In this document: positions 20,969-45,912 of the stretch, in pieces
How the letters are laid out: each line of letters begins with the position of its first letter
How positions within the stretch are numbered: position 1 is the stretch's first letter
DNA from: Oncomelania hupensis
Taxonomy: Eukaryota > Mollusca > Gastropoda > Littorinimorpha > Pomatiopsidae
Assembly (NCBI GenBank): GCA_036898135.1
Contig: CM072513.1
Location: 92,062,517 to 92,126,516 of the forward strand
Direction: 5' to 3'
DNA: 64,000 bases
The notes under the pieces: model-generated
The model's input: only the letters and a program-made list of their open reading frames with translations
What the model was told of the DNA's origin: nothing
The model's database searches: none
Made by a program: the position numbers and the translations under genes

Positions 20969-21348
20969 GAAAACATAGTAATATGCGCATACAATGAGAA
21001 CTTGTGAAGTTGAATAACAACACATTAGATAAAATCAACGCTAGAAGTAGAACAAAACAAAACAAAAATAACATTAAAAATATTGTCTAGTATAAATCAT
21101 TTAAATTAAATTCCATTGTTCGAAATACTTTAATTTAAATACCAATGGGTAGTTGTACAATAAAACTATTTTATAAAAATAAAAATAAATTATGCGGGTT
21201 GGGGACTGAAAACAAAAATTTCTTGAACTCCACTATTTTTCAAAATCCAAAATGTGACACATCAGCAATGACGGACATAATTACCAGTAAATGCAGAAGA
21301 AAGAAAACAAACGATGCATAAAGTGAATCCAGTTTACCACCTATATAA
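20969..21348. other. AT-rich non-coding sequence
   Basis: Possible continuation of dispersed repeat B at its left edge. No gene seen. Confidence 0.4.
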
Positions 21349-21489
21349 GTTACCGGTAATGTGTGAAATCCCGATATTGTATAGAATGCCTAGATAAGAT
21401 TTCAGGCATTCTATACTTTATCTATGCAGGCATTCTATACTTTATCTAGGCATTGTATAGAATGCGTGATTTCACACATTGCCGGTAAC
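21349..21489. mobile_element. Foldback (MITE-like) element, 141 bp
   Basis: Outer 22-bp inverted repeats differ at one base: GTTACCGGTAATGTGTGAAATC on the left and its complement at 21468-21489. The interior repeats GGCATTCTATACTTTATCTA and its complement, so nearly the whole unit can fold into one hairpin. No coding capacity. The transposase superfamily is unknown. Confidence 0.7.
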
Positions 21490-22351
21490 ATATACACAAT
21501 TATATACATGTGCTAAGGTGGCAACCCTCCCACTCCCCTTCTGTGTGTTGGGGCAGTCGCTGAAGAGTAGGTTACCTCCCTTAGACTGCTGTGATTTGCC
21601 CCAAGTTTTTTTTACACTTTTAGATACCAAACTCGTGGAATGAAACATTGAGCGAATAAGCAAAACCGTTCACACCTACCCAGAAAGAGAACCTATGTTT
21701 GTGGCAAAGTTGGTAACGATCAGAGCGAAACTGTGGATTTCTATCATGAATACACAGACACACACAAGGTGGTATATATACAAAAGCCAACTAACAAAGA
21801 AATGCACAAGCATGGAATGAATACTTCAGAACAATTCCTTTACAAATCTGCTTGATCAATAGTGTGTTAAGTTGACCAAACTAGCAGCCTCAAGATGCTA
21901 GCAGATGACTGGTTACATTTATTTTGCACATTCTGTTTTCTATGTCTATAGTTTAACAACAATTTTGTTTGGCCTTGAAAGTCAATCTACAACGAAAACA
22001 ACAAAGGAAAATGGTGAGCAAAACAGCTGTAGCGGAAAGGAAGGCAAATGTTGACACTTTGGAGAGATCGTCTACTTTCCATTGGTTGGTTAGTCTAGCC
22101 TGGGTGGCTCCTGCTGTGCAGAATTCTTTGGTATGGCCATTGGGTTATGCAGGATAAGACAACAGAACATATGTTCTCTCCACTTGATCATTTGTCTTCT
22201 GCTTTTGGTGGTAAGCAGGACTACATTGTCAGCAGGTTAGTTGCAGTGACCTGCAGAGAGTGTCGTGGCACGTAGTAGCCGGCAATCCTGTTTACTATCA
22301 ATACGCTTCCCCGCCTTTAAAAATCCCAACTCTCTTATGAAGGATAAATGA
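21490..22351. other. Non-coding sequence
   Basis: No domain, tRNA or repeat recognised. An open frame of 62 codons at 21969-22157 looks like chance. Confidence 0.4.
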
Positions 22352-22952
22352 AAATAACAGTTCATTACATTACATTACATGATTATTGCTTTAGGTCCAG
22401 CGGACTCTTGCGAGCCAAATCAGGACCAGACAACCCCTGATCTGCATAAAAGATCTGCCGAAACAACCCTAGTGGTAAAATTGAAGGCACTCCACCAGCC
22501 AGTCACTTTACAATAAAGACATCCCACGCAGGGGACGCTGAGGCTATACTCTAACTTATCGAACCCCAGTTTACAAAAACAAAATAGAATACAAACATTA
22601 TAAATTATCAACAAAACACATAGAAATAAAATGCCTACATTGCTAAATAATAACATCATAGAAAGCCCTACTGACCACCTGGCAGAAAGCGTCCAATATT
22701 CCCAAGCTGATCCAACAGACCTCACACACAAATAAGGAGTCTTGTCCCGGAAGAGTTTTCAAGAAAAAAGGTAGGTGACTGGTCTAGCAAAGAAGAAAAT
22801 AGTATAGCAGATTGATAGAACAGAGTAGGAATGAGAAAGAACAAATAAGAAAGACAGCGACAGTGGGAATTTAAAGCACTAAATTTCCAGAAAGTGGGGA
22901 TACTATTTATACTGAAACCCCCGGCACCTCAACGGGGGTAAATAACAGTTCA
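22352..22952 (-). mobile_element. SINE-like element, full-length copy 3, perfect 13-bp TSD
   Basis: AAATAACAGTTCA lies at 22352-22364 and again at 22940-22952. The element between is about 575 bp, with TTACAT pentamers and the LINE-type tail on the left and CCTCAACGGGGG on the right. The internal frame (22731-22420, 103 codons) is open, with the same hydrophobic core (MMLLFSNVGIL, CVLLIIYN) as copy 1. Confidence 0.92.
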
Positions 22953-24028
22953 GGTTGGGCCGTGTTCTCAAGGTGGTGAATGACAGGCGGGAGTCAAATG
23001 CTCCACTCAGTGACATAGTAAAGAAAGGAAACAAAACTATGGAGAGAAGAACAAGAAACAGAGAGACAAACAGAGAGACAACAGAGAGAACCTCATTATT
23101 AAAATTAAAAACCCACTGGATCATTAAAATTACATGTCACATTACAACCCCCTTCTTCATCCAAAAGTCTTTTGTTCAGCGCTGTACAGAGCTAAACATT
23201 TGTAACGCCCTGTAAAAGTGTATCCTAAAGAACAGGACCCTGCTGCAGCAGAACCTTTCAGTTTCTATACTAGTCAATGCCAAGGAAAAAGAAAGCAATA
23301 TTGGACTCGGACAGAAGTAGCCACTAAGCAATGGTTTACACAGCTGTCGTCATATACTTAATACAAGCCTTTATCCGCAGCATGGAATAGATAGGTATTT
23401 CAATTTGCTTGTGTTGCAATATGTGAAAATGAATGAATTCGCCTGTGCTGCGATGGAGGCAGGTAATTGGTGGTGCTTCACTATGGAGCATTGCGATGGT
23501 GCCTGTCTGTTCTGTGTTTTGCGTTTCTGTATAGTTAGTCTTCATCATTCTTTGTTGCTGTGTTTTGTATAGAAATGGTTTATGAAAGAGTATGTAGGAC
23601 TGTTTATAAATGACTTTGAATTACTGTAAATGTGTTTGTGTAAATCAAACGTTTTCTTTTTATGTCATTTTATGTAATTCTGTAATGGCACCCGCAATGT
23701 AATTTCTCAGTGACATAATAAATCTATCATATTTGTAGTGATTATATATGTGAATATGAATGATTTACTTGTGTTGTAATAAGTGAACCTGAATGAATTT
23801 TAATGTGTGGCGATATGTCAAAACGAATGCATTTGCCTGTGTGGCAACACATGAACATCAACGAATTGCCAAGCTATCAGTGGCAGTCTGCCACATCAGA
23901 CTACAATGAAAACAGTGTGTTGATGTTGATTCACCTATTTGATGGGTTTCTTGATTTGAACATCAACTAATAGACTGTAAAACAAGACTGTATATGCCAT
24001 GTTTCAATGTATCAGACATGGGTCCATC
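22953..24028 (-). other. Probable 3' UTR and downstream region of the selenoprotein L-like gene
   Basis: Lies directly 3' (minus strand) of the stop codon at 24029-24031. A degenerate ~52-bp tandem repeat (TTCATTCA..TTCACATATTGCAACACAAG-type units) occupies about 23400-23880. A SECIS element would be expected here, but no stem with an ATGA/AA/TGA core could be identified with confidence. One hairpin near 23820-23870 falls in the tandem repeat and lacks the apical AA. Confidence 0.4.
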
Positions 24029-24142
24029 CTATGGTTGTAGAGCCTGTAGTAATGTATCAGCCGTGTGTCTGTCCTTAGAACTCTGACTGCAATGACACAG
24101 AATCAAAGTGCCGTCTGTCGACATGATAAAATCTCCTCCCAT
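24029..24142 (-). CDS. SELENOL: SELENOL-like terminal exon
   Basis: After TTTTCAG: MGGDFIMSTDGTLILCHCSQ, then SSKDRHTADTLLQALQP and TAG (24031-24029). This is the usual C-terminal block of the family (QMGGDF... strand pair, then DRP/DRH...LLxAL helix). Confidence 0.85.
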   Translation of the reverse strand: MGGDFIMSTDGTLILCHCSQSSKDRHTADTLLQALQP

Positions 24143-27100
24143 CTGAAAACAAGAATAATTAAATAATAAAAAACTAACTAAATGAATGAATGAAAATTCG
24201 ATAGTGAATTCTGCACTTTCTATCCTACAAGGCAAGGCCAGTCAATAAGCTGCACCTCCCCTACATATATATACAACAAAACAAATCATGAAAATAACAT
24301 CAGCTTCAGTGGTCTATAGTAGGATTGCCACTTTACCTTCTCACTGGTAATTGAATATGTGCTAGACTTGGGTTGGATGGGTCAAGGGCCAAATTTGAAT
24401 AAAACATACCAAGGCCACACTGGACGATAAACTGTAATGGTGTTGTTGAATTTAATTAAGTAGCAGGTTAAAGTCAACAAATACACAATCTTCTTCATCA
24501 TTACACATAGTGGCACACACCTGGTTAAAATCATCATGGATGTGTTCATAAGGTGATGGAAGTGTCTTTCCAGCCCTCATCTGTTCTCCGTAGTACACCA
24601 TGCATGATATACCCCAAACCTGTACACAAAGACCATGAAACCTGTAGATATTGACAAGGCATTATATACCCCAAACTTGCATACATAGAGCAGGCACCAT
24701 GGTGTGTTGTTTTTTGTTTTATTAACGTCTTCTGATAAGATATATTCATTTGAACACACACACACACATACACATATATATATTTAATTACACTAACCGA
24801 GCCGCTGGAGAATCAATCAAAGCTTTTGCTAATCTAGCCCTTACATCAAAGCTTATGTTATCAATGGAATCAAAAACTTGAAAACAAATTTGAGGTTTAG
24901 CTGCAATCCTGATTTATTCAAAACTTTCAACCTTTTTTTAGCTACTGAAAATTAAAATTTATTTAAAATTTTGAAATGTATTTAAAATTTTGAAATTTTA
25001 GACAGACTGCATCCAATACCATTATTGAAGGGCGCATTGACTGACAATTATGAAGAACAGTCTAGAACAGACAATAAAGATCTGGAGTGTCATGAACCGA
25101 GCAGTTTACCCTGCCCATTGACTGTTTAGCTTTGTGTAGTAATTGTAACATTAAGAGAGTTAGTATAGTACACAGCAGGCCACACACAGCGAGCGAGCCA
25201 CCCACATCGCAGTGAGTCAGCACTTGAGCTTTGAATCGGACCGTTTTAACCAATCAGAGCAGGCTCAGTGGGTAGAGCAGTTTTGACTGTGTCAGAGCCT
25301 AACACAGTTTGAATCAGTCGTGTGTGAGAAGAGGAAGAAGTAACATCTACTACTTAGCTAGCAGAGAATCTCTTCACTCATAGACCAGGAAGCAGGACTT
25401 AGAATCTTAGAATTCTCTCAAGTCATCACAGGCCTGAACTTGTCAAACAGGTAAATGAACACCCTTCTGTTTCATCGTGATATATTTATATTATTGTTGA
25501 AATTATGTTTGTGGAATTTGCTATGCATAAATGTGAATTGTTAATCCGAATTTGCGGGACCACGTGGAAGAGCCTACCACGAGGTGAAACACGACCGGTT
25601 ACGCCGCCATGTTGTATACCATACGGAACCACTGTTGTTTAACTTATATGTATGTTTGCAGACCAGTGGCTGTACCACGGAATGTTTATAATATTATTAA
25701 TTCTGTATGTGTATAGTTAGCCACGATTGATATTTATGTATGTATAGGAATTTAGAGTGAGATTACAGCGGACCCCGGAAGTAGCAGAATGTTCGTCGCT
25801 TATGTATAGAGATGTGGAGCTATCACTGAGGGCTACTTGGCTTTCAGTGAGACGCTCTGCACAAACCGATTATTCAGGGTTGTGCAGAATTTCGTCTCTT
25901 ATATTACAGGCGAGCTATCCTGTGCACCCCACTCCACAGAAACGACTAGTTGGTTGAGGAACCTCTACCGCACAAGACGGAAAGAGATACCTTGAAACAC
26001 ACCCTGTCAGACCCCACAGCGTGGCAAGGGAACCCAACTACACAACGACACAGGTGGACCAGAAGCTACCTCACAGAAGGACTTCGAACACCCCACACAT
26101 GAGTTAAGTGCATAAGGCGAAGGTGCACTTAAACTGATCATAACAGGACCACAGTAGTCCAACTCTTCAGAAACTGTAAAACGGACCACAGTAGTCCAAA
26201 TCTACATGAAATATACTAGCAAAGTGCCCGAGGAAGATATAACAGCTGCCTAGACTATCAGCGATCGAACTATTAGCAGTGACTGAGACATTTTAAGTTA
26301 GATTAGTACTTAGAGAATCTTGTATAGAGTAGAAGAAATAAATGTGTGATTTTAACTGTTATCAAGTGGCTGGACTACATATGATTCATAGCCGTGTGAA
26401 AGCTAGTGTGACAGTAATCTTTTACCATTTTTCTATCTATTTCTGTACCCCAACCTTAACACAGAACGAGCTAAACAAATAAATTTATTAAAGTAATTCA
26501 TAGGGTGACTTACTAGCAGTTCCCACCGAATAAACGTGAGGGTCCATAATTCCATTGTGCAGAGCCCATAAACCCCACGTGACACTTTAATTGGCGAGCC
26601 TAGCCAGGATCTGTGGATAATAGGAATTGGGTATAACCGGACCTAAGTACAATAAAATTAGATAACAGTAGGAGGAGTAGAATAACTTAGAATAGTGGTA
26701 ACAAGGACTGATCAGTTGGGTGCACTATTCTTTAGTTAAAAACTTTTTTGCTTCAAATATTTTTGTGCCTGTATGTTGCATTGTTCTTTTGCAGGTTTTG
26801 CTTAAGTAACTGTTGTATGCCATTTGACTCTTGTTTTATTCTATTATTGATTACGAATTTGATTGTCTTTGCATTGTTGTTATTGACTTGCAATATTGCT
26901 AGTGTTTTGGTATTCCACGTGATTCAGAGGTTGTTCATAGACACGTTTGGCAATGTCGGACCCAGTGGCCTTGAGATTGCGCTTCAAGGAATTAGGGGAA
27001 GCTTTACACTTAGCAGGGGGAGACCTAATTGCGTATATCAATGCAGAGGTAGAGAAGCAGGAGGCTAAGGCAGAGAGAGCAGCAGAGAGAGAGGCGAAGA

Positions 27101-30100
27101 AACTCGAAGCGGCAGAGAGAGCTGCAGAGAGAGAACAGAAAAAAGCAGAACTAGAAGCAGAGCAGAAGAAATTAGAGGCAGAGAGAGAAACGAGGAAATT
27201 AGAGCTAGAAGCAGAGCAGAAGAAACTAGAATTAGAAGTAGAACAGAAGAAGGCAGCATTAGCAGCAGAGAGAGAAGCAGAAGTTAGGAAATGGGAGTAT
27301 GAGCGGGCAGAAAAAGAAAAAGAGAGGGAAGAAAAGGAAAAAGAAAGACAGCATGAGTTAGAGCTAAGAAGATTGGGATCAGGAGCTTCAAGTTCTTCCT
27401 CAACCCCTCCCCACTCAGATCAGCTAGAGGTAGCACCCAACCCTGTACAAGGAATGTCATTTCCACTGGGAACATTCAATGAGAGAGAAGAAGGTCTAGA
27501 TCTCTATCTGACTAGGTTTGAGCGTCTAGCAACAGAGTATAAACTAGATCCCACCCATTGGTCTTTTAAGCTTAGTCAAGGGCTTAGAGGAAAGGCTTAT
27601 GACATCTACAGTAAGCTACCGACTGACAGAGTGACTGACTATCACAAAGTAAAAGAGGCACTCCTAACGGGATTCGAACTAACAGGAGAATGCTACCGGC
27701 AAAAGTTCCGCACCAATCGGAGAGTGAAAGGAGAGAGCTATGCGCAGTTCGCGGATCGGTTGTCCACAATGCTGGATAAGTGGATTAGCCAGTCAGCCAC
27801 GGCAAAGACGTATGATGGACTGACAGAACTGTTAGTATGGGAAAAGCTACGGGAAACCATGACCCCCGAGCTGAGAACATTCTCAGTAGAGCAGGGCGCG
27901 GAAAGACTAGAAGATCTGGTCAAGGTCGCAGATAGGTACGTGGCCGCACACGGAGAAGCCAAGAGCTTCAGGCGAGACCTAAAGCCTAACGGGAAAGAGG
28001 CACAGAAACGAAGCCCTAACCGGGAAGAGCGCACCGCGAATAAGCCGAATAACCCCAGACCTGGGCAGAATAAAGGACCCAACACGGAATTCGGGAAAAG
28101 AGGTCCCGCAGAACAGAGACGGTATTGTTCGTTCTGCAACAGAAACAATCACTCCACCGCAGAATGTTTCAAGTTGGCCGCACAACGTAGGGAAGAGCGC
28201 GAAAGCCGGCCAGCGCACAGAGTTCTAACTCAAAGCAGCGGTAACAAGCCACACACAATCGGAGATCACCCATCGGTGACAGACACGGTCAAGGTCAACG
28301 GAAAAGAAGCGAACTGTCTGTATGACACAGGTCTATCATACGACGCGATAGTTAGCGAATCTCTTGTATCGCGCGCGGACTTGACAGACAAGACAGTCGA
28401 CTTACAAGGAGCAGACTTGACGAAACCGACGACTACTTGCCCAATAGCATGGATCGAAGTAGAGAGTAGGTACGTCACAGGACGAATCCAAGCAGCTGTT
28501 TTACAGAAACCCCTGTATGATCTAGTGCTAGGTTGTAGGTATGTGTTCTTAGGCACGCCCCCCAACACTGTAGAGATAGCTGCAGTGCAAACCAGGGCCC
28601 AAGCTAAAACCCAACCACCCCAGCCCGAGTTCGCTCCGAATCCAGGACTCGAAGAGATCAAAACAGCACAGAAAGAAGACACCTCGATAGCGAAGTGCTT
28701 CCAGAAGCTACCCAAGGCGCACACACCCCCGCACAAGGGAGACTTCTACATGGAAGAGGGAGTTCTACATCGACAAGGAGATGGAGATCACACCCAACTA
28801 GTACTACCAGCCACCCTTCGAGCCCAAGTACTAGAACTAGGCCACAGCATGCCACTCAGCGGACACATGGGAATTGGAGCCACAGTGCAGAGAATCAGCG
28901 CACACTACTATTGGCCAGGAATCACGGAGGATGTCAAGCGCTACGTGAAATCTTGCCACCAATGTCAACGATATTCCCCGCGACATCACACCGTACCAGT
29001 TACCTTAGGACCATCGGTAGTAGTCGGCGTGCCATTCCAGCAAGTCTCAGTAGACATAGTGGGACCACTGCCCATGACCAAGAAGCGGAACAGATTTCTA
29101 CTCACACTCGTCGACGCATGTACGATGTGGTGCGAAGCAGTCCCGTTGCCAGCGATTGACACCAAGAAGATTGCAGATGCACTCATCGCCATCTTTACCA
29201 GAGTCGGATTCCCGGACAGCATTAGAACGGACAACGGATCTCAGTTCACCGGCCGCCTGATGCAAGACGTGTTCGAGTTGATACAAGTTCATCACATTCG
29301 CACACCACCATACCACCCCGCCAGCAACGGACAAGTAGAAAGACTGAATGGAACCCTTCTCACCATACTCAGGAAAGTCGCCGACGACAATCCAGAAGCG
29401 TGGGACACCTACGTGAATGCGGCACTGTTCGCATACAGAGAAACGCCCCATGCAGCCACAGGCTACACCCCGTCAACATTGCTATTCGGCAGACCTCTAG
29501 CAGGACCGCTAGAAGCCCTACGCAGAAGTTGGACGGAGGCCGAGATAGACGACACACCAAGAGGGGCCACCAAGTACGTCGCAGACCTGCAGGAAACCCT
29601 CAAAGCAACGTGGAAGAAAGCTGGTGAAGCACTGAAAAAGGCAAGAGCCCGTCAGGCGAAGTACTACAACCGCCACGCGAAGGACAGAGAACTGCAAGTC
29701 GGCGATCAAGTGCTACTCTTACTTCCAAGTGGAACCAACAAGCTGGACATCGCTTGGAGAGGACCGTACACCCGACTGACAGAGTGACTGACTATCACAA
29801 AGTAAAAGAGGCACTCCTAACGGGATTCGAACTAACAGGAGAATGCTACCGGCAAAAGTTCCGCACCAATCGGAGAGTGAAAGGAGAGAGCTATGCGCAG
29901 TTCGCGGATCGGTTGTCCACAATGCTGGATAAGTGGATTAGCCAGTCAGCCACGGCAAAGACGTATGATGGACTGACAGAACTGTTAGTATGGGAAAAGC
30001 TACGGGAAACCATGACCCCCGAGCTGAGAACATTCTCAGTAGAGCAGGGCGCGGAAAGACTAGAAGATCTGGTCAAGGTCGCAGATAGGTACGTGGCCGC

Positions 30101-33100
30101 ACACGGAGAAGCCAAGAGCTTCAGGCGAGACCTAAAGCCTAACGGGAAAGAGGCACAGAAACGAAGCCCTAACCGGGAAGAGCGCACCGCGAATAAGCCG
30201 AATAACCCCAGACCTGGGCAGAATAAAGGACCCAACACGGAATTCGGGAAAAGAGGTCCCGCAGAACAGAGACGGTATTGTTCGTTCTGCAACAGAAACA
30301 ATCACTCCACCGCAGAATGTTTCAAGTTGGCCGCACAACGTAGGGAAGAGCGCGAAAGCCGGCCAGCGCACAGAGTTCTAACTCAAAGCAGCGGTAACAA
30401 GCCACACACAATCGGAGATCACCCATCGGTGACAGACACGGTCAAGGTCAACGGAAAAGAAGCGAACTGTCTGTATGACACAGGTCTATCATACGACGCG
30501 ATAGTTAGCGAATCTCTTGTATCGCGCGCGGACTTGACAGACAAGACAGTCGACTTACAAGGAGCAGACTTGACGAAACCGACGACTACTTGCCCAATAG
30601 CATGGATCGAAGTAGAGAGTAGGTACGTCACAGGACGAATCCAAGCAGCTGTTTTACAGAAACCCCTGTATGATCTAGTGCTAGGTTGTAGGTATGTGTT
30701 CTTAGGCACGCCCCCCAACACTGTAGAGATAGCTGCAGTGCAAACCAGGGCCCAAGCTAAAACCCAACCACCCCAGCCCGAGTTCGCTCCGAATCCAGGA
30801 CTCGAAGAGATCAAAACAGCACAGAAAGAAGACACCTCGATAGCGAAGTGCTTCCAGAAGCTACCCAAGGCGCACACACCCCCGCACAAGGGAGACTTCT
30901 ACATGGAAGAGGGAGTTCTACATCGACAAGGAGATGGAGATCACACCCAACTAGTACTACCAGCCACCCTTCGAGCCCAAGTACTAGAACTAGGCCACAG
31001 CATGCCACTCAGCGGACACATGGGAATTGGAGCCACAGTGCAGAGAATCAGCGCACACTACTATTGGCCAGGAATCACGGAGGATGTCAAGCGCTACGTG
31101 AAATCTTGCCACCAATGTCAACGATATTCCCCGCGACATCACACCGTACCAGTTACCTTAGGACCATCGGTAGTAGTCGGCGTGCCATTCCAGCAAGTCT
31201 CAGTAGACATAGTGGGACCACTGCCCATGACCAAGAAGCGGAACAGATTTCTACTCACACTCGTCGACGCATGTACGATGTGGTGCGAAGCAGTCCCGTT
31301 GCCAGCGATTGACACCAAGAAGATTGCAGATGCACTCATCGCCATCTTTACCAGAGTCGGATTCCCGGACAGCATTAGAACGGACAACGGATCTCAGTTC
31401 ACCGGCCGCCTGATGCAAGACGTGTTCGAGTTGATACAAGTTCATCACATTCGCACACCACCATACCACCCCGCCAGCAACGGACAAGTAGAAAGACTGA
31501 ATGGAACCCTTCTCACCATACTCAGGAAAGTCGCCGACGACAATCCAGAAGCGTGGGACACCTACGTGAATGCGGCACTGTTCGCATACAGAGAAACGCC
31601 CCATGCAGCCACAGGCTACACCCCGTCAACATTGCTATTCGGCAGACCTCTAGCAGGACCGCTAGAAGCCCTACGCAGAAGTTGGACGGAGGCCGAGATA
31701 GACGACACACCAAGAGGGGCCACCAAGTACGTCGCAGACCTGCAGGAAACCCTCAAAGCAACGTGGAAGAAAGCTGGTGAAGCACTGAAAAAGGCAAGAG
31801 CCCGTCAGGCGAAGTACTACAACCGCCACGCGAAGGACAGAGAACTGCAAGTCGGCGATCAAGTGCTACTCTTACTTCCAAGTGGAACCAACAAGCTGGA
31901 CATCGCTTGGAGAGGACCGTACACCCGACTGACAGAGTGACTGACTATCACAAAGTAAAAGAGGCACTCCTAACGGGATTCGAACTAACAGGAGAATGCT
32001 ACCGGCAAAAGTTCCGCACCAATCGGAGAGTGAAAGGAGAGAGCTATGCGCAGTTCGCGGATCGGTTGTCCACAATGCTGGATAAGTGGATTAGCCAGTC
32101 AGCCACGGCAAAGACGTATGATGGACTGACAGAACTGTTAGTATGGGAAAAGCTACGGGAAACCATGACCCCCGAGCTGAGAACATTCTCAGTAGAGCAG
32201 GGCGCGGAAAGACTAGAAGATCTGGTCAAGGTCGCAGATAGGTACGTGGCCGCACACGGAGAAGCCAAGAGCTTCAGGCGAGACCTAAAGCCTAACGGGA
32301 AAGAGGCACAGAAACGAAGCCCTAACCGGGAAGAGCGCACCGCGAATAAGCCGAATAACCCCAGACCTGGGCAGAATAAAGGACCCAACACGGAATTCGG
32401 GAAAAGAGGTCCCGCAGAACAGAGACGGTATTGTTCGTTCTGCAACAGAAACAATCACTCCACCGCAGAATGTTTCAAGTTGGCCGCACAACGTAGGGAA
32501 GAGCGCGAAAGCCGGCCAGCGCACAGAGTTCTAACTCAAAGCAGCGGTAACAAGCCACACACAATCGGAGATCACCCATCGGTGACAGACACGGTCAAGG
32601 TCAACGGAAAAGAAGCGAACTGCCAAGAAATCCAAGACAGTCTACCAAGTAGAGGTGAACGGGAGAGCCCGATACCACCACATCAATCTCCTTAAGAAGT
32701 ATACGGACCGACCAGCGACCCCCAGCACTCACAACTTGTTAGCCATCGCCATCGCGGAAGAAGGAGAAAGCATGGAGACCAATGCAGTAGAGTATCCCCT
32801 GCACTCCAAAGAAACCTACAAAGACGTGATACTCAACGGAGACCTAGCCGCTAAACAGCAACAGCAAGTACGACAGGTCATTCGACAACATCAGACTGTG
32901 CTCACAGACCGACCAGGGAGGACAGACCTCGTCGAAGTAACCTTAACAGTGACCGACCCAACACCCGTCCGCCAGAAGCTCTACCCGTTGCCACTGTCTC
33001 AGCAGCGAGCCATCAAGGAAGAGATAGACACCTTACTGGCAGCCGGAATCATCTCAGAGTCTACTTCACCCTACAGCGCAGGCACGGTATTGTTGCGAAA

Positions 33101-36100
33101 ACCCAACGGAGAGCATCGACTGTGCATCGACTTCAGACTCCTGAATGCGGTAACGCAGTTCCAGCCAGAGCCACTCCCGGACCAGACAGACCTATTTGCC
33201 AAGCTACAGCGAGCGAAGTACTTCTCACGCATCGACCTCAGCAAAGGATACTACCAGATACCAGTACAACCACAAGTCCGAAAGTACCTAGCGTTTAGCA
33301 CTATGGAAGGACACTTCGAGTTCAACGTACTTCCATTCGGACTCCACAACGCACCCAGCATCTTCAGCGCCATGATGCGGAAACTCCTGGCACCCCTGAG
33401 CAGCGAGCACCTACACTCGTTTATGGACGACATCCTCATCGCAACGCCTACGTGGGAGGAACATGTCACGCTCCTACAACAACTACTCGCCCGCCTCAGA
33501 GACACGGGATTGACGGCAAGACCCACCAAATGTCAGATTGGATTCACAGAACTAGAATTTCTGGGACACACCATCAGTCAAGGAAGCCTGCGACCGGTAG
33601 AAAAGACAGTGAAACGCCTACTCGACGCTCCTAGGCCCAAGACCAAGAAGGAAATGCAGTCGTTTCTAGGACTCTGCGGCTTCTACCAGAAGTTCATCCC
33701 CAACTACAACAGCATCGCCGTACCCCTGACAAATGGAACCCGGAAAATCGCCCCGGACAAAGTAGTTTGGACAGCAGAATGTGAGACAGCATTCCAAACA
33801 CTCAAGGACAGAATGACATCGGCGCCAGTACTCCACCTACCCGATTTGACTCAGCCATTCGTTCTTCGCACCGACGCAAGCGACTTAGGCCTCGGAGCAG
33901 TACTGCTACAGCGCGACCCCAAGAATGCAGAGACGCTATTCCCTGTCGCCTACGCCAGCAGAAAATTGAGACCCGCCGAGACCCACTACGCCACGTCGGA
34001 GAAAGAATGCCTTGGACTAGTCTGGGCCATACAGAAGTTTCAACTCTACCTGTATGGGACTCACTTCACAGTTCAGGTGGACCACCAACCACTATCGTTC
34101 CTGGCAGCCTCCAAGTCTTTGAACTCTCGCCTGATGAGATGGGCACTCACCCTTCAGGCATACTCATTCCAAATCGAGTACATCCCCGGCAAGGAAAACC
34201 ACGGAGCCGACTACCTCAGTCGCCATCTCGTGGAGGACACAGCAGCTGTCGCCCACCCAACACAACTAAGGGCCACAGCACCAGAATTCGTCCCCGCCCA
34301 ATAAAAACCCTGTCACTAGTGTCCATAGCTACCTGGCACAGCATTGCAGCTCAGGTAGAGCAACTTAATTAGTTTGTAAATAGGACCCTAGGATAGTGCA
34401 GTGTTAAACTAGGCTCTGTAGTAGAAAAAGGTCGAATCCAGTAGTCATCGCCTTTTTTCAGTTGAGGGAGCCTGTCATGAACCGAGCAGTTTACCCTGCC
34501 CATTGACTGTTTAGCTTTGTGTAGTAATTGTAACATTAAGAGAGTTAGTATAGTACACAGCAGGCCACACACAGCGAGCGAGCCACCCACATCGCAGTGA
34601 GTCAGCACTTGAGCTTTGAATCGGACCGTTTTAACCAATCAGAGCAGGCTCAGTGGGTAGAGCAGTTTTGACTGTGTCAGAGCCTAACACAGTTTGAATC
34701 AGTCGTGTGTGAGAAGAGGAAGAAGTAACATCTACTACTTAGCTAGCAGAGAATCTCTTCACTCATAGACCAGGAAGCAGGACTTAGAATCTTAGAATTC
34801 TCTCAAGTCATCACGGGCCTGAACTTGTCAAACAGGTAAATGAACACCCTTCTGTTTCATCGTGATATATTTATATTATTGTTGAAATTATGTTTGTGGA
34901 ATTTGCTATGCATAAATGTGAATTGTTAATCCGAATTTGCGGGACCACGTGGAAGAGCCTACCACGAGGTGAAACACGACCGGTTACGCCGCCATGTTGT
35001 ATACCATACGGAACCACTGTTGTTTAACTTATATGTATGTTTGCAGACCAGTGGCTGTACCACGGAATGTTTATAATATTATTAATTCTGTATGTGTATA
35101 GTTAGCCACGATTGATATTTATGTATGTATAGGAATTTAGAGTGAGATTACAGCGGACCCCGGAAGTAGCAGAATGTTCGTCGCTTATGTATAGAGATGT
35201 GGAGCTATCACTGAGGGCTACTTGGCTTTCAGTGAGACGCTCTGCACAAACCGATTATTCAGGGTTGTGCAGAATTTCGTCTCTTATATTACAGACGAGC
35301 AGGCGAGCTATCCTGTGCACCCCACTCCACAAAAACGACTAGTTGGTTGAGGAACCTCTACCGCACAAGACGGAAAGAGATACCTTGAAACACACCCTGT
35401 CAGACCCCACAGCGTGACAAGGGAACCCAACTACACAACGACACAGGTGGACCAGAAGCTACCTCACAGAAGGACTTCGAACACCCCACACATGAGTTAA
35501 GTGCATAAGGCGAAGGTGCACTTAAACTGATCATAACAGGACTACAGTAGTCCAACTCTTCAGAAACTGTAAAACGGACCACAGTAGTCCAAATCTACAT
35601 GAAATATACTAGCAAAGTGCCCGAGGAAGATATAACAGCTGCCTAGACTATCAGCGATCGAACTATTAGCAGTGACTGAGACATTTTAAGTTAGATTAGT
35701 ACTTAGAGAATCTTGTATAGAGTAGAAGAAATAAATGTGTGATTTTAACTGTTATCAAGTGGCTGGACTACATATGATTCATAGCCGTGTGAAAGCTAGT
35801 GTGACAGTAATCTTTTACCATTTTTCTATCTATTTCTGTACCCCAACCTTAACACAGAACGAGCTAAACAAATAAATTTATTAAAGTAATTCATAGGGTG
35901 ACTTACTAGCAGTTCCCACCGAATAAACGTGAGGGTCCATAATTCCATTGTGCAGAGCCCATAAACCCCACGTGACATGGAGCAAGGGCAATCATAAAAT
36001 AATTTATTTTGATTGCCACTCAAACAGACGGACAGAAATACTGTATGCTTTGGCTGCAACGTCACACAGCACAAATTATTAAGACAATAAGAGAGGGTAG

Positions 36101-39100
36101 TGTAGATGCTGGACCACTGACCTTGAATGCTGATCTCTTCAACCCAAGCATGTGATAAACCTGAAGGAAACCAACCACAACAAGCAACATTAGGCAGATG
36201 GGAAGAAAATTGTGGGCTCAAAGCATACCTTTATCACCATTTCTAATAATAGCATTTATTTAGTTTATTTATTTCATCACGTAAACAGCGCTTTTCCAGC
36301 TAGAGAGGTGCTCAAGGCACTGGCTTATACAGGACCTAACTCAAGCTGCCCAAGGCGTCAACTTGCTGTCTTGGGTGCATCGACTGATGCCCAGACAACT
36401 GAGCACAATCCTGGCCAACAGGGGAGAATGGACCTGGTGCATGCTGGGAGTATTTGTGTAGCTGGTACTCACATGTCTAGGACATGAGCGGCATGATCTT
36501 TGAATCTGTGCAATAGAATGCCTGTGTGTAACAAACCTTGGTTTATACTCTGATCTGAAACGTGACACGATAGTGTAGATGGAACCAGGATTAAACCTTT
36601 TTTTTTTTTTTTTGGGTAAACAAACTCGATAACACAAATGTAGATAATAAAGGAAAATAACCTGTCTCTGACCATCCAACAAAAAGGGGAAAGGACAAGC
36701 CGTGTCCTGTAACCAGCGCTGCGCTCCCTCACGCACTCCGAACGAGATCAGCACAAGACCAGCTCCCAAAGCGATGAACTCTTCCTGCAATCCCAACATG
36801 CTTCTAAGATGGATGTAAATGAATGAACGAATGAAAATGTATCAAGTGCAAGGATACTTCCTCACAAGAAGCATGATCACAGGGTGCGTTCACAAATATC
36901 AATTAAAACCCCAAGTACTGAACCTACAATATCATCCCACATGCGCAAGCTGCCAGTTCGCACGCCCAGCAGCACTCTCTCCATTTTACACCATGGACAC
37001 AGAATTCCACAAGAAATAAATTGAAGACGTCTTGCATTGTGTCTCATGAACTTCCATACGATGATGAAAGCCACTCTTCGAGTAAAACATGAATGTATAA
37101 GTGTGCTGCTGCCATTGTTGCAGCAAGTGGTGGTTATCCAACATGGCTTACAGTAATAAACTCAAGCCTTTGTTTCATAATATCCCTGCCTTATCCAACA
37201 TAATATCCCTGCCTTATCCAACATGGCATACCTTTCAGTAAACTCAAGTCTTTGTTTCATAATATCCCTGGCCTCATCCAACACAGCCTACAGCAAGCTA
37301 ACCCTTGCTCCTCAGTCTTTCTTTTGCTTCATAATAGTTAGCTTGTAACTCCAGATGAAGGCTCGTTCTTTGTAAAGACAGTGATCGAGTGGAACAACCT
37401 CGACGATATCACCGTCACCATGCCCACGCCCAATGCCTTCTCAGCAGCGTTAGGGCGGCAGAAACCAGTGTGAACAACCCTGTGTTTTTATCAAGTTTTT
37501 AACCGTTTGGATTATAACCTTTTAAACAGACAGTGTACCCATTGCCTACATCTGGGCAAACGGACTGTTAAAACCGCTAGGTACAGCAGCAAGAAGACCA
37601 GCTGAAGTGTAAATATTACTGTTAAAGATTTTTCTTAGATGCGCACACCCTAAAACGTCACGTTGATAGTCATCATCGGCTTCTGTGGCGCACCCGCCAA
37701 TCAACATCCACAGGTGGGCTATCCAGATCCAGATCCAGAAGGCGTTTTAGTGAAATACATGAATACACAATCTTTTAATCTCCTGTGTTGCATCTACTTC
37801 CCCATTTGTACTTGTCTTCCCACTGTCCAAGACACACCAAGGGGTTACAAGACACAATAATAACAAAAAGCTAACCACTCAACTACTCAATGAGGTAGTC
37901 AAACTAGTCACCTGTCTGTCCATCAGTTCAGAGACATGGAGGCGTCAGGGCAGTCAGGCGAAGTGTCGCAAAAGCACCAACACTAAACGTTTAGTTTCTG
38001 CTGACACTGCTTTGCCTGCTGATGACGATGCTGAGGTTGGTACTGCCGCTCTTTCACCCTGCACATTAAAAAAAAGAAAAAAAAACAATCTTGAAAGCTG
38101 ATGGTAGCATACAGCCCATATTTTTTTTTTTTTTGGCAACAGCAAAAACAACCAGGATCATTTTGAGTTATGAACAAAAAAAAAAAAAAAACGATTTGTG
38201 CACGTGTAATTCTTCCATCTTCAGTATAATGTAGCATCCATTATTATTACTACTATGTAGCATCCATTATTATTATTACTAACATCATTCTCTGACCTTC
38301 AAGGTACTGAGAATCTTCACTCTATGATCTTCAGGGTCCAGAAAAGTGAAAAGCCATACCTGTGTGGCCTTCATTTCCTCTTCAGGGGAGTCCACTGCTG
38401 CTTTGAAGAAATCCCCAAGACAAGTTGTGTCCCCTGAACGCGCATCCACTAGGGCGAGGTCAAGGGGCAATTTCTGACCTTGGGTCAAAGGTTGTGGCCC
38501 CGAGTTCTCCAGATGAGCATCCACATCCTTCAACACTGTGTCCCACTGGCTCTGAATAACAAACACAGCCAGCCACAATTTCTAAAAATTAAAAACAAAT
38601 ATCAAGCATCATGATTATCACAGTGTCTGTAACATGAAAGCGTGTGTGTTGGTTACAGATCGCCGCACTTTGAGTCTGATTTAGAAACAAGGCGCATACA
38701 GCATCCATTATTATTATAGTTATTATCACAAACAACAGATACAGAAATAAATGTTTAACATTAAAAATAATTATGAAGCAATAGGATACAATATAATCAC
38801 AATCGCCATTACTTCTTTGAACTTTGTCCTGTTATTTGATACAACACCATCAAACAGTATTACATTAGCTCCTAGAGCAGGTGAGCCATACAGCCAAACA
38901 ATGGGGAGAGGGGGGTGATGGGGACACAAGAAACTTCCAGAAGTAAACAAGAATGGCATAACAGTATACAAGAATATTGCTCACACAAAAATTAACTTAT
39001 TGATATTAAGATGTTACAGTGAACATAGGAGCACCAAATTGAGGAAAAAAAATAAATAAACAAATGGATAATTTTTTTTAAAGTAACAAACATGAGGAAA

Positions 39101-41804
39101 GATAATCCCAAAACAGAATACACATAGGTCTCAACCAAGAACATGAGTTTGAAATAAACGCAAACATATAATTATGACACTACACTAACAATGACAGTGT
39201 TTGCGCTAGAAATTTCGCCAGCTGCTACCACCTTCGACTGTCATGGGCTGTTAAAAAGACAACCAGTATCAACAGACAGACCATCACACACGCCATTGGA
39301 CAACACAATGACCTGCTCAAAGTGGTGAAGAAACGGAAACTCCGATGGTATGGCCACATCACCGGAGCATCAGGCCTTGCAAGACCATCCTGCTAGGCAT
39401 GGTGCAAGGAGGCAGAAGAAGAGGGAGACAGAAAAAAGGTGGGAGGACAACATTCGAGGATGGACTGGCTTGACACTGAGCAAAGCCATGAGGCTTGCTG
39501 AAGACAGAGCAAATTGGGGGTATGCTGGTTAAACGATCATCTGTGGTCTTTGGTCATCTGTGGTGCCCCAACGACTTTTGAGTTATGGGATAGATAGGAT
39601 AGTATCAACAATCTTTTTTTCCCCAAAGGCTACCCACTCCCCTCATTTCCTTCCTGCAGAAGCGGTAATATGATGTGAGGAGAGAAAACTGCTAACTACT
39701 GTACGTTTGCATGTTGATGTGAGCACCAAAAACATTTGCTAAAACACCCACATAGGAGAGAAAGACAGAATGGACGTAACTTTGTTCCAACTCATGATGC
39801 AAAGGAAGCATGTGACATATGTAAAATAAAATTTGCTTTTTTTTGACGTTTGCTTCAGCTCGCAAATTAAATAAGTGTTGTATAAACATCCTTCTGGTCC
39901 TCGATACCGGCATCATGATTGTGTTATGTCTTTCACATTTGTAAACAGCATTTTACCGCTTGCAGATGATTATTTAGTGTCCGTGGATCACAGCTTCTAA
40001 AGGCCAGCTCTGTGAGGGCAGTGCCTGTATCATCTGACTCATGCGCAATGTTTCCATTGCTAGGTTGCAAAGAGTGCAAGGACAGTACCCTATCACAGCC
40101 AGGATGGACTGGACAGATTCTTCAGTTCTGTAAGTTTCCGTGGTCACCTGCTGCAAAGCTGAGACCACCTGCCATGTTCTTCAAACAAAAGTGTGAACGA
40201 TAAAGCTATTATAATTATGTTCAGTCCAATCAACGACAACAAAAAGAACTACAATTTCAACAGCACAGATATATTTGCAATTCAGTTACCTCTAGATCTT
40301 GCAACTGTTCAAAAGCCTCCTGAACATCAGAATGCCTGGAAAGGAAGAGAAGTTAAAGCTAATCTTATGGAAAAAGTAGCAAAATAAAATGGTGTAAATT
40401 CTCCACATTAAAGTTAAACAGTAACAGGCAACACACCAGAACAATTACTCCCCCTACCTCCTACCCTTCTCTACCTACCCTTCCCTCCCCCCAAAAAAAA
40501 TTTAGAAGGGTAAAGCCCATATGACTTACATTCTTCTTACGGAACTTGCAATATTTAATATGAAAATGAGTGCCAGAAAAAAATGAAATGGTGGCATTAA
40601 AATGCAAAGTAATACCAACTTTGATCTTTCTATGCTCTTGACCATAATATGATCTTGATCTCTGGCTCCAAATACACTCATGTATAAATAAAATAAACTA
40701 CAGCAAAGGTTTAATTACGCCAAAAAAAACAGTGACCTTGGGATGATCTTGACCTTTAGTGACCATGACCTTGGGATGACTTTAACCTTCATGTGACATC
40801 TCATAATCATGTATTGTCAAATAACCCAATGTTTGCCCACAATGGCTTAAATATACAGCCATTCTACTGTATGACCTTTTTTTTTTAAATGGTTTAGCAA
40901 GGCCTAACTTGACCTTGACCTTCAAAATCAACGCACAAATGAAACATATATGAAAGATCAATCTATCGTCTCTAAATACAAGAAGTATCTCTCATAGTTT
41001 AAGGTCAAGGTCACATCAAAGTACCTACACTAACCGACTTTGGACAGCTCCAGTGATCTTGACCTTGGAGTGAGGTTGACCAAATTTGCACAGTATGTGT
41101 GCCTCATTAAAATCTATCATGCAAAGAAAAAAAGTGAAATTTTGTATAAAAAAAAAAAACCAACAACAACAACAAAACTGTCGGTTTTTTTACCCTGTGA
41201 TCTTGACCTTGAAGTGAAGTGATTCATTCACTGATCATTTATGAAGTCTCATGGATATACACCATCTTACCAAGATTGGTTGTGATAGTTGAAATATAGG
41301 TTCAGTGATGTTAGTCCACTTGCAAGTTTTTCACAGACAGATGGCGTGCGCTGGACAGACAACTTTTTTTAAATGTAATTTTTGGTCTATTTATGACTTA
41401 TCTTGCACAGATTTGCAAAAATCTTGAAAAACAAGAACCGGTGGCGGGGGAAGAGGATAGAGGGGAGGAGGTGGTACATAGATCCACATTGCTACACATG
41501 TGAGTCAAAAAGAATATATATATATTTTTTAAATAAAGGGGATGGGGGTGGTAGGAAGAGAGAGGGATGGAGAGAGAGAGAGAGAGAGGGAAGGAGGGAG
41601 AGAGAGAGATTCATTGAAAGTGTTAGATGGAAATGAGGAATAGAGGAGGATTTAAAGTGTATGTATATGTGTGTGTAGGGAACAGGTAGGGGGGGAAGGG
41701 GAGGGGGGAAGTGTAATGGAATCCTTCAAGTCACTTAAGGTAAGACTTACCTGAAATGATGTTGGATTTTTCGTTCCAAATCTACCTTAGTGTGCACATT
41801 GACC
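24029..41804 (-). CDS. SELENOL: Selenoprotein L-like thioredoxin-fold protein, multi-exon gene with a UxxU motif (5' end missing)
   Basis: Eight exons, minus strand: 41751-41804, 40290-40335, 38360-38551, 37912-38058, 36662-36784, 36122-36160, 24521-24619, 24029-24142. All have AG acceptors and GT donors, and the splice phases agree (one phase-2 junction, the rest phase 0). They give 270 visible residues. Order: an N-terminal helical part (HSDVQEAFEQLQDLE, WDTVLKDVDAHLE); LPLDLALVDARSGD; then LVLVLLRHFA-U-LP-U-RLHVSEL, where both U are in-frame TGA (residues 132 and 135). Next come VLISFGVREGAQRWL, CPFPFLLD, VYHMLGLKRS, VYYGEQM and MGGDFIMSTDGTLILCH. This matches the AhpC/TSA peroxiredoxin-like fold, with CxxC replaced by UxxU. 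Known of family: selenoprotein L of aquatic animals has a diselenide-forming UxxU redox motif. Inferred: a redox enzyme whose translation needs a SECIS. Not found: first exon, promoter, SECIS. A gypsy element sits in intron 6. Confidence 0.8.
24521..24619 (-). CDS. SELENOL: SELENOL-like exon (seventh visible)
   Basis: 99 nt, 33 codons, between TGTACAG and CAG|GTGTGT. Encodes VWGISCMVYYGEQMRAG then KTLPSPYEHIHDDFNQ. It is separated from the micro-exon by about 11.5 kb, of which 10.9 kb is the inserted gypsy element. Confidence 0.8.
25088..26584 (+). repeat. 5' LTR of the gypsy element
   Basis: 1497 bp, TGTCATG...CGTGACA. Differs from the 3' LTR by about four substitutions seen by eye and lacks an 8-bp segment (ACGAGCAG) near 25908. 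Near-identity means a recent insertion. AATAAA occurs near the 3' side (about 26480). Confidence 0.92.
26592..26609 (+). promoter_or_regulatory. Candidate primer-binding site
   Basis: TGGCGAGCCTAGCCAGGA starts 8 bases after the 5' LTR. TGG is the complement of a tRNA 3' CCA. The tRNA was not identified. Confidence 0.5.
26953..29787 (+). CDS. Gypsy Gag-protease-integrase reading frame (first unit)
   Basis: The first ATG is at 26953 (MSDPVALRLRFKELGEAL). Domains by residue: Lys/Glu/Ala coiled coil about 35-145; gag core about 165-330 (LYLTRFERLATEYKLD); CCHC knuckle CSFCNRNNHSTAEC about 390; retropepsin DTG about 457 (LYDTGLSYDAIV); integrase zinc finger H-H-C-C about 630-675; catalytic core D (VDIVGPL, about 700), D (RTDNGSQF, about 758), E (NGQVERLNG, about 794); ending WRGPYT about 934. 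It stops at the repeat junction (29785-29787) because the duplication shifts the frame, so RT is not reached. All catalytic residues are present. Confidence 0.88.
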   Translation: MSDPVALRLRFKELGEALHLAGGDLIAYINAEVEKQEAKAERAAEREAKKLEAAERAAEREQKKAELEAEQKKLEAERETRKLELEAEQKKLELEVEQKKAALAAEREAEVRKWEYERAEKEKEREEKEKERQHELELRRLGSGASSSSSTPPHSDQLEVAPNPVQGMSFPLGTFNEREEGLDLYLTRFERLATEYKLDPTHWSFKLSQGLRGKAYDIYSKLPTDRVTDYHKVKEALLTGFELTGECYRQKFRTNRRVKGESYAQFADRLSTMLDKWISQSATAKTYDGLTELLVWEKLRETMTPELRTFSVEQGAERLEDLVKVADRYVAAHGEAKSFRRDLKPNGKEAQKRSPNREERTANKPNNPRPGQNKGPNTEFGKRGPAEQRRYCSFCNRNNHSTAECFKLAAQRREERESRPAHRVLTQSSGNKPHTIGDHPSVTDTVKVNGKEANCLYDTGLSYDAIVSESLVSRADLTDKTVDLQGADLTKPTTTCPIAWIEVESRYVTGRIQAAVLQKPLYDLVLGCRYVFLGTPPNTVEIAAVQTRAQAKTQPPQPEFAPNPGLEEIKTAQKEDTSIAKCFQKLPKAHTPPHKGDFYMEEGVLHRQGDGDHTQLVLPATLRAQVLELGHSMPLSGHMGIGATVQRISAHYYWPGITEDVKRYVKSCHQCQRYSPRHHTVPVTLGPSVVVGVPFQQVSVDIVGPLPMTKKRNRFLLTLVDACTMWCEAVPLPAIDTKKIADALIAIFTRVGFPDSIRTDNGSQFTGRLMQDVFELIQVHHIRTPPYHPASNGQVERLNGTLLTILRKVADDNPEAWDTYVNAALFAYRETPHAATGYTPSTLLFGRPLAGPLEALRRSWTEAEIDDTPRGATKYVADLQETLKATWKKAGEALKKARARQAKYYNRHAKDRELQVGDQVLLLLPSGTNKLDIAWRGPYTRLTE
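27621..29773 (+). repeat. Tandem unit 1 (2153 bp) inside the gypsy element
   Basis: Starts GACTGACAGAGTGACTGAC within gag and ends in the IN C-terminus. The same 2153-bp period recurs at 29774 and 31927, and no difference between units was seen by eye. Confidence 0.9.
29774..31926 (+). repeat. Tandem unit 2 (2153 bp) inside the gypsy element
   Basis: Copy of unit 1, carrying the gag C-terminal half, CCHC, PR and IN in an open frame of 728 codons (29754-31940). Because 2153 is not a multiple of three, each unit is out of frame with the one before it. Confidence 0.9.
31927..32622 (+). repeat. Partial tandem unit 3 inside the gypsy element
   Basis: The first ~696 bp of the unit, from the gag segment to just before the protease triplet (ending GAAGCGAACTG). 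The sequence then jumps to the IN C-terminus (CCAAGAAATCCAAG) and on into RT. Confidence 0.88.
32623..34304 (+). CDS. Gypsy IN C-terminal tail, reverse transcriptase and RNase H
   Basis: Open from the junction at about 32623. The IN tail NGRARYHHINLLKKYT (32658-) is followed by RT motifs LCIDFRLLN, SRIDLSKGYYQIPV, NVLPFGLHNAPSIF and catalytic FMDDIL, then LEFLGHTIS. RNase H: LRTDASDLGLGAVLL, SEKECLGLVWAI, VQVDHQPL, closing with GADYLSRH. No internal ATG is an obvious start. In an undisturbed element this would be the end of one Gag-Pol frame. Catalytic residues look intact. Confidence 0.85.
34464..34470 (+). promoter_or_regulatory. Candidate polypurine tract
   Basis: GAGGGAG, two bases before the 3' LTR. 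Short, but in the expected place. Confidence 0.45.
34473..35977 (+). repeat. 3' LTR of the gypsy element
   Basis: 1505 bp. Identical to the 5' LTR except for about four substitutions and 8 extra bases at about 35296. Followed directly by TSD TGGAG. Confidence 0.92.
36122..36160 (-). CDS. SELENOL: SELENOL-like micro-exon
   Basis: 39 nt between CCTTCAG and AAG|GTCAGT. Encodes VYHMLGLKRSAFK, which aligns with the conserved xYxxLGLxRS block of peroxiredoxin-like proteins. Phase 0 on both sides. Confidence 0.8.
36262..36505 (-). mobile_element. SINE family 2, copy in SELENOL intron 5
   Basis: The reverse complement aligns over its whole length with 63040-63290. It shares CCAGGATTGTGCTCAGTTGT and CTGGGCATCA, then GCAAGTTGACG, GCCTTGAG and AGCTGGAAAAGCGCT, ending in an A/T-rich AAATAAATAA-type tail. 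No protein. Confidence 0.7.
36662..36784 (-). CDS. SELENOL: SELENOL-like exon (fifth visible)
   Basis: 123 nt, 41 codons, between TTGCAG and CAG|GTTATT. Encodes EEFIALGAGLVLISFG, VREGAQRWLQDT and CPFPFLLDGQRQ, the central strand-helix-strand of the AhpC/TSA-like fold. Phase 0 on both sides. Confidence 0.85.
37137..37305. repeat. Imperfect tandem repeat (~80 bp units)
   Basis: CTTTGTTTCATAATATCCCT and CCAACATGGC recur two to three times. Intronic. Confidence 0.6.
37912..38058 (-). CDS. SELENOL: SELENOL-like exon carrying two in-frame TGA (Sec) codons
   Basis: 147 nt, 49 codons, between TGTGCAG and CAG|GTGACT. After KRLVLVLLRHFA come TGA (37956-37954), CTG, CCC, TGA (37947-37945), then RLHVSELMDRQ. 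The sequence on both sides of each TGA is that of a thioredoxin-fold redox strand and helix, so reading them as selenocysteine is better supported than two stops in a pseudogene. Both flanking junctions are phase 0. Confidence 0.85.
38360..38551 (-). CDS. SELENOL: SELENOL-like exon (third visible)
   Basis: 192 nt, 64 codons, from TATTCAG to CACAG|GTATGG. Begins SQWDTVLKDVDAHLE, contains LPLDLALVDARSGD (the strand and turn that precede the redox strand in peroxiredoxin-like proteins) and ends EEEMKATQ. The open frame runs past both splice sites, but the homology does not. Confidence 0.8.
38561..39289. other. Intron of the SELENOL-like gene
   Basis: AT-rich; nothing else recognised. Confidence 0.4.
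39290..39600 (+). mobile_element. RTE-like LINE, 3' end fragment in a SELENOL intron
   Basis: Plus strand: encodes LLKVVKKRKLRWYGHITG then GRRRGRQKKRWEDNIRGWTG, a stop, then the 3' UTR ending GATAGATAGGATAG. Best preserved of the three 3' fragments of this type in the window, with one frame change in the middle. Confidence 0.7.
40290..40335 (-). CDS. SELENOL: SELENOL-like exon (second visible)
   Basis: 46 nt after TTTCCAG, ending GAG|GTAACTG. Encodes HSDVQEAFEQLQDLE after the split Arg codon and ends on a codon boundary, as the next exon requires. Predicted helical. Confidence 0.65.
40730..41220. repeat. Degenerate TGACCTTGACCTT-rich repeat
   Basis: GATCTTGACCTT, TTGACCTTGACCTT and AAGGTCAAGGTCA occur at least eight times at irregular spacing in the intron between visible exons 1 and 2. 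The motif equals nuclear-receptor half-sites (TCAAGGTCA), but the degenerate spacing looks like an old dispersed repeat. Confidence 0.6.
41751..41804 (-). CDS. SELENOL: SELENOL-like exon (first visible)
   Basis: 54 nt between TTTCAG and a consensus CAG|GTAAGT donor. Encodes VNVHTKVDLERKIQHHF, with one base joining an unseen upstream exon and two bases (AG) completing an Arg codon with the G that starts the next exon. Short, so less certain than the later exons, but phase and donor fit. Confidence 0.6.
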
Positions 41805-44710: not shown

Positions 44711-44747
44711 ATGCGCGATAATACTAGGGGAAACAATTGTGGCCTGT

Positions 44748-45090
44748 ATGGGAGGCGAGATATAGCAAACGCGCGCGCATTTGCGCTCGCATTTGCGCTC
44801 GCAAATGCGCGCCCCTCGCGCAAATGCGAGCGCATTTGCGCGCGTAAATGCGAGCGCACTTGCGAGCGCAAATGCGCTCGCTCGCATTTGCTATATTATG
44901 GGAGGCGAGATATAGCAAACGCGCGCGCATTTGAGCTCGCAAATGCGCAAATGCGAGCGCAAATGCGCGCGCACTTGCGAGCGCATTTGCGCGCGTAAAT
45001 GCGAGCGCACTTGCGAGCGCGGTTGCTACGCCCGTTGCTATGAGGATTTTGCTGAAAACTGTCAACGGAAAGGAACTGAAAATGAACACA
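44748..45090. repeat. GC-rich array of inverted 12-mers, array 1
   Basis: Begins TATGGGAGGCGAGATATAGC, followed by alternating GCGCTCGCATTTGC and its complement GCAAATGCGAGCGC in both orientations. The cassette restarts at 44898, then ends GGTTGCTACGCCCGTTGCTA and a unique-looking end AAAACTGTCAACGGAAAGGA. Strongly self-complementary. Confidence 0.85.
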
Positions 45091-45337: not shown

Positions 45338-45912
45338 TGGGAGGCGAGATATAGCAGTGCTAGTTTTCACTAATTATTACAAATATTATTAATAATAAAT
45401 GCAAGAAATATTTAATTTGTGCACGTCTCAAATTCTTTCACAGACACATTCTTTTCCGGGTATAATTTTTACGTGTATGGAGCGGAATATAGTATGGGAG
45501 GCGAGATATAGCAAACGCGCGCGCATTTGCGCTCGCATTTGCGCTCGCAAATGCGCAAGTGCGCTCGCATTTACGCGCGCAAATGCGTTCGCAAGTGCGC
45601 TCGCATTTGCGCGCGCGGTTGCTACGCCCGTTGCTATGAGGGTTTTGCTGAAAACTGTCAACGGAAAGGAACTGAAAATGAACAAAGCGCAGACGCCAAA
45701 GATTAAAGAAGGAAAAAAATAAATCTAGCGTACATTTTGTAGTGGTTGGGCGCGGCTTTGTCACTGAGTAGCCTATAATATCATATGTGAGTTTATAGAT
45801 TGATGTTAATAATAAATGCAAGAAATATTTAATTTGTGCACGTCTCAAATTCTTTCACAGACACATTCTTTTCCGGGTATAATTTTTACGTGTATGGAGC
45901 GGAATATAGCAA
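45338..45912. repeat. GC-rich array 2 with duplicated flanks
   Basis: TATGGGAGGCGAGATATAGC recurs at 45338 and 45492. A second 12-mer array runs from about 45510 to 45620 and ends with the same GGTTGCTACGCCCG...GTCAACGGAAAGGA block as array 1. A ~100-bp segment (TAATAATAAATGCAAGAAAT ... GTATGGAGCGGAATATAG) at about 45390-45495 is repeated at 45808-45909. Confidence 0.85.

Follow-up and report, generated by a model that had tools for sequence, protein, structure and literature searches.

A very probable animal selenoprotein L gene carrying a two-selenocysteine UxxU motif

The window, by which we mean the whole stretch of 64,000 nucleotides analyzed, very probably carries an animal selenoprotein L (SelL) gene on its minus strand, in which two in-frame TGA codons would both be decoded as selenocysteine (Sec) via a 3' SECIS element, giving a peroxiredoxin-like (Prx-like) UxxU protein with diselenide chemistry. 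The original prediction had named selenoprotein L, and this assignment is now supported by a score above the cut-off of the NCBIfam model NF040769, by two AhpC/TSA Pfam domains, and by Cys or TGA at both motif positions in nearly all of the bacterial relatives listed. The basic biology is already known: SelL of fish and invertebrates (Shchedrina et al. 2007, as cited in PMC2397514, PMC3316567, PMC3473315), its UxxU motif and the diselenide are published, and the window gene adds a member.

The motif lies in one exon of the minus strand:

37912..38058, minus strand: coding exon that holds the UxxU motif (RHFA-U-LP-U-R), both TGAs standing where NF040769 prefers Cys.

This exon (38058-37912, 147 nt, beginning and ending in phase 0) translates as ...KRLVLVLLRHFA-U-LP-U-RLHVSELMDRQ, in codon form GERAAVPTSASSSAGKAVSAETKRLVLVLLRHFA-TGA-LP-TGA-RLHVSELMDRQ, between GT-AG splice sites (acceptor tttttttaatgtgcag, donor CAG/gtgact). 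Two in-frame TGAs in a UxxU pattern with good splice sites, as first described with no strand given, are real and belong to the minus strand; the plus strand of the exon holds one TAA and four TGAs in the single frame translated, from the first base.

Another six exons of the minus strand connect to the UxxU exon with AG/GT borders and in matching phase, and one more is a probable N-terminal exon. In the order of the coding strand, they are:

41751..41804, minus strand: probable N-terminal coding exon (VNVHTKVDLERKIQHHFR), with a perfect donor CAG/GTAAGT, a phase that fits the next exon and acceptor TTTCAG, and without homology support.

40290..40335, minus strand: coding exon HSDVQEAFEQLQDLE, with AG-GT borders, an open frame and fitting phase, outside the family-model match.

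38360..38551, minus strand: coding exon SQWDTV...KATQ of 64 codons, with AG-GT borders and phase 0, outside the family-model match.

36662..36784, minus strand: coding exon EEFIALGAG...LLDGQRQ, with AG-GT borders and phase 0, within the NF040769, PF13911 and PF00578 matches, and with a weak donor CAG/GTTATT.

36122..36160, minus strand: coding exon VYHMLGLKRSAFK, with AG-GT borders and phase 0, within the NF040769 match.

24521..24619, minus strand: coding exon VWGISCMVYYGEQMRAGKTLPSPYEHIHDDFNQ, with AG-GT borders and phase 0, which together with the last exon lifts the NF040769 score.

24029..24142, minus strand: last coding exon MGGDFIMSTDG...LLQALQP with stop TAG, with fitting acceptor and phase, its QMGGDF aligning with Q-M-G/P-G of the relatives.

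The seven exons that include the UxxU exon splice to a protein of 252 residues with a normal TAG stop, and adding the probable exon 41804-41751 reproduces the 270 residues given in the original prediction. Where that prediction named five in-phase neighbors, we find six (four of them family-supported) plus the one probable N-terminal exon. That exon is tentatively assigned as coding on its phase, donor and acceptor, and ATG 41827 may offer it an alternative start. Donor scores for six exons were 3.96, 4.66, 4.5, 1.22, 4.34 and 5.4, the weak one (1.22) being at 36662. The two last exons, located by motif scan and by reading the surrounding frames, lie beyond a 10.9 kb retrotransposon. A near-copy of an exon start (QVWGI) was also seen at about 24665-24682 on the minus strand, just upstream of the VWGIS exon.

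Profile searches, for which Cys was written at both TGAs, placed the protein in a known family. NF040769, "SelL-related redox protein", matched the 252-residue protein with 121.6 bits, only 1.6 bits over the cut-off of 120 (E 2.6e-35), across profile positions 23-172 of 173; the score was 78.5 bits without the two last exons and 121.6 bits with them. Pfam PF13911 (AhpC-TSA_2) scored 42.4 (cut-off 27) and PF00578 (AhpC-TSA) 38.1 (cut-off 26), and Redoxin reached 19.7, under its cut-off of 26.6. Residue 100 is the first that the family match covers, and the two exons preceding the motif exon contribute about 80 residues without homology support. A thioredoxin-like fold had been proposed on both sides of the motif: this stands downstream, whereas upstream it stands only within the motif exon, the two or three exons further upstream having no family match. 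Given the NF040769 match (E 2.6e-35), the exons running from the UxxU exon to the stop do not form a chain by chance. An open stretch arising by chance, from unrelated exons joined by the reader, is thereby rejected for the five exons that span 38058 to 24029, which match one single family; the window is repeat-rich and was read by eye, and such chaining may apply to the exons upstream of 38058, yet as an account of the gene we regard it as exceedingly improbable. With the window protein alone as query, no relatives were found in genome contigs, plasmids or viral contigs, and a sequence search of solved structures with a 182-residue version gave no significant match (7 rows at E<=1; the best, at 0.14, unrelated).

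The SelL gene as we read it is interrupted by a large mobile element:

25088..35977, plus strand: LTR retrotransposon in the intron that separates the VYHML exon from the VWGIS exon, with two LTRs of ~1.5 kb, a target duplication, and reverse transcriptase and integrase domains.

Its LTRs are 99.2% identical (4 mismatches, 1 gap), with TG...CA ends and a 5-bp target duplication TGGAG, and its frames comprise an integrase (26941-29787) followed by a reverse transcriptase/RNase H (32586-34304), so that the integrase comes first. This 10.9 kb insertion might speak for a decaying SelL copy, that is, a former CxxC or UxxU gene from which no protein is made and whose TGAs are ordinary stops, as might a first exon that is not firmly identified, the one weak donor (36662) and the weak score of the SECIS candidate described below. 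The element sits within the intron, however, and leaves exons and splice sites untouched; the borders are AG-GT throughout; the NF040769 score lies above the cut-off; and the only in-frame stops of the 270-residue reading are the final TAG and the two TGAs, which fall just at the two redox positions, though 100 of its 271 codons are one change away from a stop. We consider a decaying copy improbable, and retain an intact SelL gene as our reading.

Other repeats were observed in the window. Inside the retrotransposon, a unit is repeated three times at about 27600-32700 (plus strand) with a spacing of 2153 bp and 100% identity (300-nt segments compared), reflecting either recent duplication within the element or an artefact of assembly. 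Two copies of a non-LTR-type element, closely alike on visual inspection and with frames resembling reverse transcriptase and RNase H, lie at 6813-8885 (plus strand) and 50316-52462 (minus strand), a long reverse-transcriptase-like frame lies at 55068-58397 (plus strand), and two arrays of GCGCAAATGCGAGCGC-like repeats lie at 44747-45020 and 45517-45616.

The two TGAs occupy positions at which the family keeps redox residues. With Ser, Trp or Ala in place of Cys at the first position, the NF040769 score fell from 121.6 to 113.8, 113.0 and 113.9 bits, and the same replacements at the second position reduced it to 116.9, 113.8 and 116.1 bits. Since each single replacement lowers the score, the model prefers Cys at both positions, the loss costing 4.7 to 8.6 bits over the six single variants; a variant with Cys shifted off the first position scored 110.3 bits. 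To collect relatives with both redox codons left free, we scanned contigs of one genome per species for the pattern F(L/F)RHF(G/A), four free codons, R(E/D), which gave at least 119 bacterial stretches, a sample limited to members with those flanks. Among the stretches listed, at least 75 resembled the window protein at E<=1e-3 (46 UxxC, 28 CxxC and one CxxL), and no UxxU was found among these 75 bacterial relatives; the other 44 were mostly unrelated-looking and included two UxxC, two CxxC and two CxxS. Because Cys in the query could favor such matches, both positions were then masked in query and targets, leaving 52 relatives among the listed stretches at E<=1e-3 (35 UxxC, 16 CxxC, one CxxL). 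That homologues would keep Cys or Sec at both positions, as originally anticipated, was borne out among bacterial relatives: 51 of the 52 masked relatives listed carry either Cys or in-frame TGA at each of them. When the part after the motif served as the only query (E<=1e-3), all 28 relatives among the matches listed were UxxC. Nine of the 75 relatives (six UxxC, three CxxC) all matched NF040769, seven of them above its cut-off, and an alignment of 12 relatives with the window protein, motif TGAs being written as Cys, showed R-H-F, both motif positions, the R that follows, a single Asp and a single Gly as invariant. Bacterial UxxC genes, with their in-frame TGA at the first redox position (e.g., L019, L036, L045 and L073), occurred in Chloroflexota, Actinomycetota, Planctomycetota, Armatimonadota and others.

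These relatives also bear on whether the TGAs could be read as another amino acid such as Trp, or by plain read-through, with no selenocysteine at all. A TGA followed by C is a leaky stop context, and C follows both TGAs (TGACTG, TGACGC), which would suit read-through. Trp, however, is spelled TGG in the same coding sequence (3 codons) and costs 7.8 to 8.6 bits at either site, the relatives among the matches listed carry Cys or in-frame TGA there, and a SECIS-like element is present downstream. We judge such decoding highly unlikely, and selenocysteine remains our reading of both codons.

We predicted the structure of the UxxC relative L019 using an alignment of 24 sequences, all bacterial and L019 among them, and obtained a model with mean pLDDT 96 and pTM 0.91. 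In this model a strand (33-37) precedes the motif, whose positions are 43 and 46, and a helix begins at 44. Among the best 50 of 1216 PDB rows, Bcp and AhpE-type peroxiredoxins came first, and ResA-like thiol-disulfide oxidoreductases and human prostamide/PGF synthase were also included. The L019 model thus shows a Prx-like fold in which the redox residue stands at the head of a helix that follows a strand, whereas the window protein, 28% identical to L019 by alignment and 30% over the tree columns, is placed in this fold by Pfam only.

Beyond the stop codon, on the coding strand, we identified a candidate SECIS:

23298..23364, minus strand: SECIS-like element (AUGA CGACAG..GUGUAAACC..GUCCGAG) in the presumed 3' untranslated region, matching Rfam RF00031 (SECIS_1) over model positions 1-64 of 64.

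It lies about 665 nt past the stop and scored 18.1 bits, far under the gathering score of 35, in a search of 20500-24060 at a permissive threshold; its E value was 7.3 across 4227 families, or ~0.002 for one family by division. AUGA, an unpaired AAA and GA sit at the spacing of the SECIS_1 model, and the 52-nt core folds as expected, into a helix, an internal loop and an apical stem, with a folding energy that is ordinary (101 of 200 shuffles were as good for 85 nt, and 57 of 200 for the 52-nt core). In a 2012 study of invertebrates, the SECIS elements are given as almost all of the AUGA_AA type, the sponge excepted (PMC3473315). On both strands of three equally long control stretches no SECIS was listed, and no Rfam family reached its gathering score in the whole window. 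A hand-written SECIS descriptor gave 12 hits on the minus strand and 8 on the plus strand across the window, with none of the minus-strand hits within 14000-24100; it required a nearly unbroken helix beside AUGA, a feature absent from the Rfam candidate. No AATAAA or ATTAAA occurs within 1.3 kb after the candidate, the nearest polyadenylation-type signals being AGTAAA at 22296 and AATAAA at 21923. We regard minus 23364-23298 as a good candidate for the SECIS, not as proof of one.

The codons, the exon chain, the family membership and the Cys/TGA character of the two positions among relatives are observed here, and from what is known of the family we propose a mechanism of the SelL type. If the gene is expressed, as we infer, ribosomes would decode both TGAs of exon 38058-37912 as Sec with the aid of a SECIS in the 3' untranslated region, the eukaryotic Sec machinery inserting Sec at both UGAs through one SECIS. 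The product would be a peroxiredoxin-like protein of thioredoxin fold, with UxxU in the place that CxxC or UxxC takes in most relatives, and its motif would cycle between two selenols and a diselenide, supporting thiol/selenol redox chemistry.

The bacterial UxxC relatives bear on how the UxxU site arose. We built a tree of 71 of the 75 listed relatives (at least 150 aa) and the window protein from residue 93, with the motif positions masked. The smallest well-supported set that contains the window protein (99/96) has 35 rows, namely 33 UxxC, one CxxL and the window protein itself, and no CxxC; the window protein has an end branch of 3.51 and the tree does not fix its place. UxxC and CxxC rows do not form single groups in the tree (8 and 7 changes). 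The comparison of listed matches suggests that the nearest bacterial relatives of the window protein are UxxC selenoproteins. A possible, though rather doubtful, scenario is that animal SelL derives from a widespread bacterial UxxC selenoprotein family which was already selenium-based at its uptake by animals or their ancestors, and that the second Sec was gained later, allowing the diselenide. Prx-like UxxC and UxxU prokaryotic selenoproteins are in print (PMC13188914; PMC2398784), and SelL is named there as a family of both prokaryotes and eukaryotes (PMC2398784); the possibly new part is the tie of the animal protein to the UxxC bacterial members.

Many annotation pipelines cut short or miss enzymes of this two-selenocysteine kind; the window gene would place one in a further animal genome, and the exon map and candidate SECIS can be used for its annotation. 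The expectation that standard gene finding would truncate or skip it holds for vertebrate SELENOL in Ensembl, where SELENOE, SELENOL and SELENOJ are reported with under 1% well annotated genes, and holds far less for RefSeq, for which the same source gives 77% of vertebrate selenoprotein genes as well annotated, the families specific to fish faring as well as those of mammals (PMC12822975).

SelL is described as having two Sec two residues apart, served by a single SECIS, and as occurring, among vertebrates, in fishes (PMC3316567). Of the six invertebrates in the 2012 study, five are listed with it (sponge, Trichoplax, sea anemone, annelid and amphioxus), and Lottia gigantea, the sole mollusc there, is given as lacking it (PMC3473315). 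The window gene shares with animal SelL the two presumed Sec codons two residues apart and a Prx-like protein, and no difference was seen in a comparison that covered the family model and bacterial relatives. With the bacterial NF040769 proteins it shares the domain nearly end to end, with both redox positions aligned; the bacterial relatives listed are UxxC, CxxC or CxxL, whereas the window protein is UxxU and has about 80 extra N-terminal residues. Prostamide/prostaglandin F synthase (PGFS) and other PF13911 proteins carry CxxC, in contrast to the UxxU of the window protein, which scores above the PF13911 cut-off. By sequence, the PGFS PDB chain and the 182-residue window version gave no significant match (E 0.99), and by fold the human PGFS C44S/C47S structure ranked 23 among the L019 matches (best 50 of 1216), its two mutated positions lying three apart like those of the motif.
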